DNA of 64,000 nucleotides. Origin: an uncultured Opitutia bacterium (GTDB lineage Bacteria > Verrucomicrobiota > Verrucomicrobiia > Opitutales > Opitutaceae). Shown here one piece after another: positions 6,664-9,564 of this stretch (positions within the stretch are counted from its first letter, which is position 1; every line of letters begins with the position of its first letter). The position numbers and the translations under genes are program-made. The DNA is taken from NCBI GenBank assembly GCA_903859715.1, contig CAIONS010000023.1, positions 1 to 64,000 of the forward strand. The letters run 5' to 3'. The notes beneath the pieces were generated by a model. That model saw only the letters and a program-made list of their open reading frames with translations, was not told the DNA's origin and ran no database searches.

Positions 6664-7890
6664 TTATTTCTGCGTGACGCGCGCAATGATGTCCTGGGCT
6701 TCCTCGGCGGTAAACCCGGCGCTGACCAGATCGTCGGCCTCGACGCCTTCAAAGGCGGCGGGAGAATTGATGCCCATGTCGACGAGGCGGCCCGCAATGG
6801 CGGCGTCAAACGCGTAGGTCTTGAAGAGCAGCGCGACGGCGTTGCCGCGCGGGTCGTCTCCCACGGCCTGGAATTCCTCGATGTCGAGGCGCCAGCCGAT
6901 GAGACGCGAGGTCAGGCGCGCGTTCTGGCCCTTGCGGCCAATCGCGATGGCGAGGTCATCCGTCGCCACCTTGAGGACGATGCGGTGATTCTTGTCATCG
7001 ATGATGATCTCGCGCGGCGCGGCCGGCTTGAACGCCTCGATGATCATTTCCTTCGGGTCGGCAAAGTAGCGGATGATGTCGATCTTCTCGCCGCCGAGTT
7101 CACGGACGATCGTCTTCACGCGGGCGCCGCGGGCGCCGACGCATGCGCCGACCGGATCCACCTTGGGATCGGTGCTGGTGACGGCGATCTTCGTGCGGTA
7201 GCCGGGCTCGCGCGCGAAGGCCTCGATCTTCACGGTGCCGTCAGCGATCTCGGTGACCTCGAGCTCGAACAGGCGGCGGACAAACTTCGGGCTGGCGCGG
7301 GTGAGGATGATCTCGGGGCCGCGGGGCGTGGAATCGATGGAGAGCAGCAGGCAGCGGATGCGCTCGCCCGGCTGGTATTCCTCGCCGGGGACCTGTTCCT
7401 TGCCGGGCATGATGGCCTCGGCCTTGCCGAGGTCGACGTACAGATCGTTGCGCTCCCGGCGGCGGACGGTGCCGGTGACGATGTTGCCGACCTGGTCCTT
7501 GAAGTCGTCGTAGATGCGATCCTTCTCAAACTGGCGCAGCCGCTGCATGACGGCCTGGCGCGCGGTTTGCGCGGCGATGCGGCCGAGTGTGGACGGATCG
7601 ATTTCCTTTTCCACAAACTCACCGATGAGCACGCCCGGCTTCACCAACTGGGCCTTTTCGACATGGATTTCCGCCTTCGGATTGCTGACCGAATCCACCA
7701 CCTTGAGCAGCGACCAGGCATGGAGCTGGCCATTCTTCGGGTTGATGTCGATTTTCAGCTCCTGACCGGAGTTAACTCCCTTTTGCGCCGCGGTTTTCAA
7801 CGCGTTCGCGATCGTGGCGATCATGTCGGCACGGGGAATACCCTTCTCCTTCTCCATGTATTCCAGGACTGAAAGAATTTCGCTGCTCAT
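6664..7890 (-). CDS. nusA: transcription termination/antitermination factor NusA
   Basis: NusA (408 aa) binds RNA polymerase and nascent RNA and modulates pausing, termination and antitermination. The order is an N-terminal polymerase-binding domain (1-125), an S1 domain (about 130-200, with [18 protein letters not shown]), two KH domains ([18 protein letters not shown] and [15 protein letters not shown]), then one short helix-hairpin-like C-terminal repeat. Length is between forms with no and two acidic repeats. It is the first gene of the operon. Unlike many bacteria there is no rimP before it; a DUF2851 gene sits there instead. The leader holds a promoter and a terminator-like hairpin. Confidence 0.96.
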
Positions 7891-7907
7891 AAGGTTGGTA
7901 TTAAGGG

Positions 7908-7947
7908 AAAAAAAAAGCGGGCCGCAGGGCCCACTTTTTCGAAAGTG
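7908..7947 (-). terminator. strong terminator hairpin in the nusA leader, possible attenuator
   Basis: On the minus strand GTGGGCC (7934-7928) pairs with GGCCCGC (7923-7917) around a 4-base loop and is followed by nine T residues, ending 18 bases before the nusA start. It may end the DUF2851 transcript. A promoter-like sequence lies upstream of it, so it may also act in the nusA leader. A second hairpin, CACTTT/AAAGTG (7947-7942 with 7937-7932), shares three bases with the terminator stem. On the plus strand the stem is followed by five T, so it may work both ways. Confidence 0.75.
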
Positions 7948-7965
7948 AGGTTGATTGAGTCGGAC

Positions 7966-7995
7966 AATCTACCGAGTGGCGCCAAATCTTGTCAA
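7966..7995 (-). promoter_or_regulatory. sigma-70-like promoter for nusA operon
   Basis: On the minus strand TTGACA (7995-7990) is followed after 18 bases by TAGATT (7971-7966). The -35 box is perfect and the -10 box matches four of six positions. It lies between the DUF2851 stop (8015) and nusA, and a start near 7959 would place both hairpins in the leader RNA. Confidence 0.6.
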
Positions 7996-8014: not shown

Positions 8015-9244
8015 TTAATCCTGCGCCTCGCGTTCCAGCAACCAGCCCAGCAAACCCTGCGCCGCGCCATGGCTGGCCGGCTGCGCGCGACCGTCAATTG
8101 CGCCCAAACTACGCAAGGCCCGCGGCAGCATCGGCGGCAAATCGCCGGGATACCAGTGAAACCACACTCCGCCTGCATCGCGCCCGCTGATCGCCGCGAG
8201 CAACGGCAGAAATCCGTCGCACACAAGATTGTCGAGTCGGGTGCCGCCCACGGCGGTTGCCCCGAGTTTGACTGCCATGGTTTCCCGCAGCTTCGCGAAT
8301 TGTCCGGTGCGACGCGCCACACCAGTGGCGGAATCCAGTACTGACGCCGGCAGGGATTCACCGAGAGCCATCAGTTGCCCTGGCCAATCCGGCTGCGCCC
8401 GGACCCAGGCCGCATATTGCCGGAGGCGCAGCCGCGGATGATTCGCCGGCCTTACTCCTTGCAGACTCCAAGTGCCGGATTCGGCGGCGAAGATTGCGTC
8501 GCTGTCAGTGACAGGCCTCACCCACTCCCCCAACGGCCACGCGGCCGCGATGCGCAGCATGGGCGCCCGGTTGAAACGGTAGCCCAGGATTTCGAGCGCC
8601 GCATGATGGCATGCGGCCGTCCAGCCGAGCCGTTGCACACGCACTCGCGCAAAGTGAACCTTCTGCCGCCAGCGGCGCTCAGCATGACGGTTCAGGAGCT
8701 GCGTCAATTCCGCTGCGGGTAACGTCGCCAGTTCCTCATGAATTCGCGACGCCGGCCGATTGGTCAGGAGTTCCACCGCTTCCTCCGCAGCGAATTGCTC
8801 AAGATCGTGATGCAGCAGCGGCAGCAGCGCCGCGACCGGAATGGCCGAGCCATCCCCGCCCCGCGTCACATGGCCCGGTTCAGGAGGAAACAGCACCACG
8901 TGCAGCACTACCCCATCGTAAGCCCGATCAGCAGCATGCCCGTGCGCGGCCCAGCCGTCCGCGAGCAGGTGCAGTTCCACATCGCCGATAATCTCGGGCC
9001 CGTCATCGAAGCCCAGTCGCGCACCCTTGAAATCCGGGCCGCCCAGCAGATTCCATTTGCCCGGATGCCGCACGCGCACATGCCGGCCCTCGGTCGTGAC
9101 CAGGCCGGCGCGATCAAAGTCGCCTCGCAGCCAGATTTTCTGGAGCAGTTTTTCCGGAAAGGAAAACGCACCGTAGAGTCCTTGGATTTCCGCCACCACG
9201 CCAGCCGGCGACACATCAGCGGAAGAGAAAGAATATGAGCTCAT
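8015..9244 (-). CDS. DUF2851 family protein
   Basis: A 409-aa protein matching my recollection of DUF2851: a start region with EIQGLYGAFSFPEKLLQKIW, then WNLLGGPDFKGARLGF, GDVELHLLADGW and YDGVVLHVVLF. The function of the family is unknown. I start at the ATG at 9244 (MSSYSFSSADVS) rather than 9361, because the extra upstream residues do not look protein-like. No signal peptide or membrane segment is evident. It occupies the place upstream of nusA and probably ends at the shared terminator. Confidence 0.82.
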   Translation of the reverse strand: MSSYSFSSADVSPAGVVAEIQGLYGAFSFPEKLLQKIWLRGDFDRAGLVTTEGRHVRVRHPGKWNLLGGPDFKGARLGFDDGPEIIGDVELHLLADGWAAHGHAADRAYDGVVLHVVLFPPEPGHVTRGGDGSAIPVAALLPLLHHDLEQFAAEEAVELLTNRPASRIHEELATLPAAELTQLLNRHAERRWRQKVHFARVRVQRLGWTAACHHAALEILGYRFNRAPMLRIAAAWPLGEWVRPVTDSDAIFAAESGTWSLQGVRPANHPRLRLRQYAAWVRAQPDWPGQLMALGESLPASVLDSATGVARRTGQFAKLRETMAVKLGATAVGGTRLDNLVCDGFLPLLAAISGRDAGGVWFHWYPGDLPPMLPRALRSLGAIDGRAQPASHGAAQGLLGWLLEREAQD

Positions 9245-9564
9245 GCGTTTCACTCCGAATGCGCGCCGTTCAATGTCCTGAAATCGCAGCGACGACAGCG
9301 AAGGAAACGAGAACGACATCCACGAAGTGCGGCAATTTCTTTCAGCCCAACCACGATTCAAATTACGCCTAACGAAGGCAAATCAGCTGCACCTCGCGCA
9401 GCAAAAATTAAGTCGCCCTCAGCGCTGTCAGGACACAAGAAAAGATACCCCATTTTCACTGGCACATGTTCCAGGGAAATCCTCGCCGTCACCGACGACC
9501 CGCACTTCACCACCGATGCGTCAGACTCTTTAGTAGGTCCCCCGACTCATTTCCTCCTGAGCCG
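9245..9564. other. divergent intergenic region, no gene seen
   Basis: These 320 bases separate the divergent DUF2851 gene and histidine kinase remnant. Base composition is less GC-rich than in the flanking genes. I see no convincing coding frame, RNA or strong hairpin; it presumably carries both promoters. Confidence 0.5.

Follow-up and report, generated by a model that had tools for sequence, protein, structure and literature searches.

Does the short stretch between a DUF2851 gene and nusA in the genome of an uncultured Opitutia bacterium hold an attenuator of the nusA operon, or is it simply the place where transcription of the upstream gene ends? The earlier note on this DNA had proposed attenuation, based on a promoter followed by two overlapping hairpins, and had named a simple terminator of the DUF2851 gene as the plain alternative. 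We followed up both readings in the window, i.e. the whole stretch of 64,000 nt that was analysed (contig CAIONS010000023.1, positions 1 to 64,000), and in genomes of the same order, class and phylum.

Anatomy of the nusA leader

The elements first noticed, a TTGACA-18-TAGATT promoter upstream of a GC hairpin with nine T before nusA, are all present on the minus strand and are listed with their coordinates in Table 1. The terminator hairpin comprises 13 pairs including an A-U extension, with a 7-pair core GTGGGCC-CTGC-GGCCCGC (7917-7934, loop CTGC), and the arms of the 5' hairpin, CACTTT (7947-7942) and AAAGTG (7937-7932), can be extended to 8 bp (7930-7949). The two structures share three bases of the 7-bp core, as had been claimed, and six of the full 13-bp stem. 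Between the T tract and the nusA ATG (7890) there are 17 nt, and because this gap is so short, nusA expression must pass through the element.

Table 1. Features of the nusA leader and its surroundings in the window.
Feature	Position	Strand	Basis
-35 element TTGACA	7990..7995	(-)	window sequence
-10 element TAGATT, 18-nt spacer after -35	7966..7971	(-)	window sequence
predicted transcription start, approximate	7960	(-)	inferred from -10 position
5' hairpin CACTTT-CGAA-AAAGTG, alternative to terminator	7932..7947	(-)	energies, exposed-RNA folding, swap tests
terminator hairpin	7911..7940	(-)	folding; kept in 121/127 order loci
T tract, nine T, partly paired in extended stem	7908..7916	(-)	window sequence
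nusA, first operon gene	6664..7890	(-)	Pfam NusA_N, S1, KH_5
operon order nusA-infB-rbfA-(DHH gene)-truB-ribF		(-)	non-nusA names from translations
upstream DUF2851 gene, context only, outside element	8015..9361	(-)	PF11013

The window leader folds with -19.8 kcal/mol (z -3.9 against shuffles, 0 of 200 as good). Taken alone the promoter match in the window is weak evidence, with one found and 0.5 expected in 4-kb shuffles, which is not significant; it is because of its conservation that we regard the element as more than chance. Two further possibilities were considered and rejected. A GTG frame starting in the terminator stem of the window enters the nusA start and could suggest a leader peptide, but the GTG-ATG distance modulo 3 varies among the loci (31, 20 and 15 of 66). 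When other leader copies were sought with model R1, a single additional match (E ≤ 0.01) came up in the own genome; this one and the matches L131, L132 and L135 are located behind ORF 3' ends and resemble ordinary terminators, with L133 and L134 being ambiguous cases.

A Shine-Dalgarno-like sequence does not occur before nusA at window positions 7891-7907, nor before infB and rbfA in the window. Such a sequence precedes nusA in 1 of 66 order loci, compared with 4 of 17 class loci that do not belong to the order and 28 of 35 from other classes. The predicted 5' end of the transcript, ACUCAAU (window 7954-7960), is common in the window's family and presumably resembles a NusA-binding RNA of M. 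tuberculosis.

Conservation of promoter and terminator

Three pooled samples show that a hairpin followed by a T tract is kept before nusA in 121 of 127 loci of the order. For the first sample NusA was matched in 54 of 57 relatives and the upstream DNA was read for 53, the dropped rows being G049, where the match starts at residue 203, and G006, G041 and G052, which gave no NusA match. Here the hairpin with T tract precedes nusA in 52 of 53 loci; the exception, L043, has no motif and was excluded from alignment A1. All 14 further order genomes of the second sample carry the hairpin. The third sample consists of 60 further order genomes picked outside the window's family, of which 51 match the motif by script and four were added by eye (L239, L245 with a weak tail, L265 and L269), while the hairpin is absent in five (L216, L217, L219, L220 and L221), all from one family. 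Together with L043 this makes six order loci without the hairpin. In the family of the five the TTGACA promoter is kept, the GTGGG terminator is lost and other hairpins are seen before nusA.

In 65 of 66 order loci TTGAC is located 70-105 nt (about 88) upstream of the point where the T tract ends, and the script found it also in 58 of the 60 loci of the third sample. The -10 element is less conserved, with at least four of six matches in 30 of 66 order loci. In a further set of 80 loci, which overlaps the other genomes and was therefore kept out of the 127, promoter and hairpin were present in all 77 usable loci; L165, L166 and L212 were excluded for too short upstream DNA. Promoter and terminator are thus kept together across the order. 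The T tract is separated from nusA by 5-64 nt across the 66 order loci, and nusA therefore depends on read-through.

The gene arrangement in the window would at first sight fit a plain terminator of the DUF2851 gene, as this gene has the same orientation and stops 19 nt short of the -35 element, with no other terminator between. The hairpin probably does serve DUF2851 in this way as well. As the whole explanation, however, this reading is very improbable. DUF2851 is often absent upstream of nusA in the order sample and the hairpin is still present, also at loci where the neighboring gene is divergent. Such neighbors encode QueC (L040), ALAD (L047), a member of the isocitrate/isopropylmalate dehydrogenase family (Iso_dh, L048) and an ABC ATPase (L051), and L042 and L046 likewise have divergent neighbor proteins and a kept hairpin. 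With several upstream genes divergent, a plain DUF2851 terminator therefore fails to explain the conservation, and the position of the hairpin is always between the promoter and nusA. Attenuation before nusA, on the other hand, is well supported by the joint conservation of promoter and terminator, which extends to loci with a divergent upstream gene.

Beyond the order, a script that misses some hairpins visible by eye (e.g. L078, L079, L090 and L097) found a similar hairpin in 26 of 35 loci of other classes, 25 of these hairpins with G[TC]GGG, and in 11 of the 17 class loci that are not part of the order, 8 of them with G[TC]GGG; as background, 59,486 nt of DNA lying further upstream contained 5 such hairpins. 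The class loci L082, L084 and L085 have a hairpin without GGG. In L078, L079, L086-L088 and L094, again from the class outside the order, the flanks of the terminator look complementary by eye, like an enclosing outer stem.

A putative hairpin competing with the terminator

The alternative stem had been described as partly mutually exclusive with the terminator. In the window leader the terminator has an energy of -19.8 kcal/mol, the 5' hairpin of -4.3 (6 bp) to -7.1 (8 bp) kcal/mol, and the 5' hairpin plus a residual 4-bp terminator of -10.8 kcal/mol. Stepwise folding of the exposed RNA predicts that the 5' hairpin is dominant until the polymerase has come to the last T of the tract; there the alternative folds are within about 2 kcal/mol of each other. 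Of 191 leaders, 173 have three or more of the six arm bases paired upstream at the equivalent moment.

For the comparison among species we used a swap test (L245 excluded), in which each terminator arm was combined for folding either with the upstream segment of the same leader or with segments from other species. Outside the window's family the non-redundant leaders (n=38) gave -3.84 kcal/mol with their own segments and -2.17 kcal/mol with swapped ones (0 of 20,000 permutations). When every family was represented by a single leader (n=20), the values were -3.44 and -2.18 kcal/mol, a result that 5 of 50,000 permutations equaled. As a control, an arm from behind the T tract showed no effect in this test (z 0.23). 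With reversed upstream segments an effect was still seen, though a smaller one (z -2.9, 58 of 20,000; z -1.7 with one leader per family), and part of the swap signal is therefore composition. Within the window's family, where the 5' hairpin varies too little, the test did not reach significance with the 0.75 threshold (7586 of 20,000), and the looser 0.85 threshold gave 400 of 20,000.

By a six-base count of the competing stem the own segments were no better than swapped ones (6330 of 10,000), and by the delay of terminator folding they were no better than shuffled upstream segments (Wilcoxon p 0.16). A first shuffle test yielded p ≤ 0.05 for 13 of 52 leaders. Pair counts for the 5' hairpin were weak on the MAFFT alignment, in which distant leaders are misaligned outside the terminator. 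Arms that are altered yet pairing were recognized by eye as CACCT/AGGTG (L051), GCTTTC/GAAAGC (L076), CTCTTA/TAAGAG (L256) and, with wobble, CATTATCC/GGATAGTG (L237). The swap tests thus support a putative competing hairpin conserved throughout the order, while the six-base count and the delay measure were negative. For the claim of a mutually exclusive stem this means that it is supported by the swaps outside the family and with one leader per family, but not by the test within the family or by the six-base count.

Relation to known leaders

The element is similar to the rimP-leader, which is described in the sections cited here of Naville and Gautheret (2010, PMC2965389) as a terminator GGGc(...)gCCC before rimP-nusA-infB in most bacteria. 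The window stem GGGCC-CTGC-GGCCC with T9 agrees with this GGGc(...)gCCC pattern and its T stretch. Among the 66 order loci a GGGC..GCCC stem is present in 34 and GGGY..RCCC in 51, and the range of 4-130 nt before the first gene includes both the window (17 nt) and the order (5-64 nt). The E. coli leader shows GGGCTTTAGGCCC followed by seven T just before rimP. There are also differences, as the first gene of the operon is nusA here and not rimP, and a competing 5' hairpin is supported here, whereas the general form of the rimP-leader has no visible antiterminator in the cited sections of PMC2965389, which name NusA or RimP as possible readers. Membership in Rfam RF01770 (rimP) was rejected, with 0 of 57 genomes over the gathering cut-off, no match at nusA and the family missing from the matches of the window leader, although this model is narrow and only 1 of 14 control genomes was over the cut-off.

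In other bacteria RimP acts in the maturation of the 30S subunit. RimP_N (PF02576) was found in none of 57 relatives and in none of 240 genomes from the phylum, compared with 10 of 14 control genomes, and NusA was matched in 233 of the 240. Because RimP_N is missing from all 240 phylum genomes, RimP is unlikely to be the effector here, barring divergence beyond the Pfam model.

In B. subtilis an intrinsic terminator is likewise found in the leader of the nusA operon and NusA feedback has been proposed; according to the cited part of a review (PMC12288461), NusA is autoregulated there by NusA-stimulated termination/attenuation in its own leader. NusA-stimulated termination is thus reported for B. 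subtilis, whereas in our case a role of NusA would follow by analogy, and the ylxS leader has 180 nt in the cited sections of PMC2965389 compared with about 50 nt here. GraL/greA of E. coli resembles the element in having a promoter, a very short leader, an intrinsic terminator and a transcription-factor gene, but differs in the factor and in the sequence; in the part of PMC6829880 cited here, the greA product raises termination in its own leader and about two thirds of transcripts end at GraL. Our search of the open-access literature on nusA leaders and start-site maps in Verrucomicrobia found no paper describing such an element. The element is real and conserved and very probably an attenuator of the rimP-leader kind, the principle of which is known. 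New here are the overlap of the terminator with a putative competing hairpin and the absence of rimP, the usual first gene.

Possible mechanism and effector

We consider it fairly probable that the element acts as a transcription attenuator of the nusA-infB operon with NusA most likely raising termination. Start site and termination in vivo are inferred from the sequence: transcription would begin from the promoter, some 30 nt ahead of the terminator core, and the roughly 50-nt leader would form the 5' hairpin first, which the emerging 3' arm of the terminator would then displace. A large share of polymerases would stop at the T tract, and the read-through fraction would set the levels of NusA, IF2 and RbfA. 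NusA helps hairpins to form in the RNA exit channel; by raising termination it would most likely limit its own synthesis. NusA feedback is favored because RimP_N is absent and because there is precedent in other bacteria, namely NusA autoregulation in B. subtilis as given in the cited part of the review, so that the assignment of NusA as effector is by analogy. Against the NusA step, the same part of PMC12288461 states that NusA matters most at weak hairpins and interrupted T tracts, and the window terminator is strong (-19.8 kcal/mol, nine T), unlike the NusA-sensitive type reported there. The loss of the hairpin in six order loci and the negative six-base count and delay measure likewise weigh against the model.

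The second pair of the terminator core is T-G in 147 of 194 order leaders (C-G 24, T-A 5, other 18), and in 52 loci outside the order, from the class and other classes, T-A was found 22 times versus 12 times for T-G (C-A 1, no match 17). The conserved G is retained even where its pairing in the terminator is a U-G wobble. When the polymerase stands at the C that precedes the conserved G of CCCGC, the distance back to the end of the 5' hairpin is 10-13 nt in 155 of 176 leaders, a spacing that is partly forced by the terminator's own geometry. The cited part of PMC12288461 reports the same spacing for NusA-stimulated pause hairpins. One could therefore imagine a sensor of two hairpins, in which the 5' hairpin would be a NusA-stimulated pause hairpin using the 5' arm of the terminator, and NusA would have two successive effects, at first stabilizing the pause together with the competing fold and later driving the terminator; this we find doubtful.

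An effector other than NusA is also conceivable, with cold-shock proteins or temperature melting or trapping the leader hairpins and thereby raising read-through. In E. coli, CspA, CspC and CspE reduce termination in the metY-rpsO operon and increase the expression of nusA and rbfA (cited part of PMC9765468, referring to earlier work), rbfA belongs to the window operon as well, and 5' hairpin and terminator are close in energy during transcription of the T tract. The single-stranded part of the leader, however, is not conserved outside the family, and on balance an effector of this type seems possible but rather unlikely. The leader might also do without any effector and let a constant fraction of polymerases pass, with the 5' hairpin merely setting this fraction. 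Such a role would suit an element that is short and has no conserved ligand pocket, but the conserved core sequence and the T-G wobble (147 of 194) exceed the needs of a simple terminator, and autoregulation through the nusA leader is reported for B. subtilis in the review section cited; we judge it quite improbable. Finally, promoter and terminator would yield a short stable RNA, so that the element could be a gene of about 50 nt for a small RNA acting in trans, to which the downstream nusA is incidental, and GraL before greA in E. coli is a precedent (cited part of PMC6829880). The constant position before nusA points instead to a cis role, the segment preceding the terminator is freely variable outside the family and the window leader has no Rfam match above the gathering score, which leaves a small RNA gene extremely improbable.

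In the sections cited here, Naville and Gautheret left it undecided which of the two proteins, RimP or NusA, reads the rimP-leader. A phylum that has no detectable RimP and yet carries such a leader represents a natural experiment, which argues in favor of NusA or another shared factor and against RimP. With the competing hairpin, an operon in which transcription and translation factors are combined would have a concrete switch that can be mutated.
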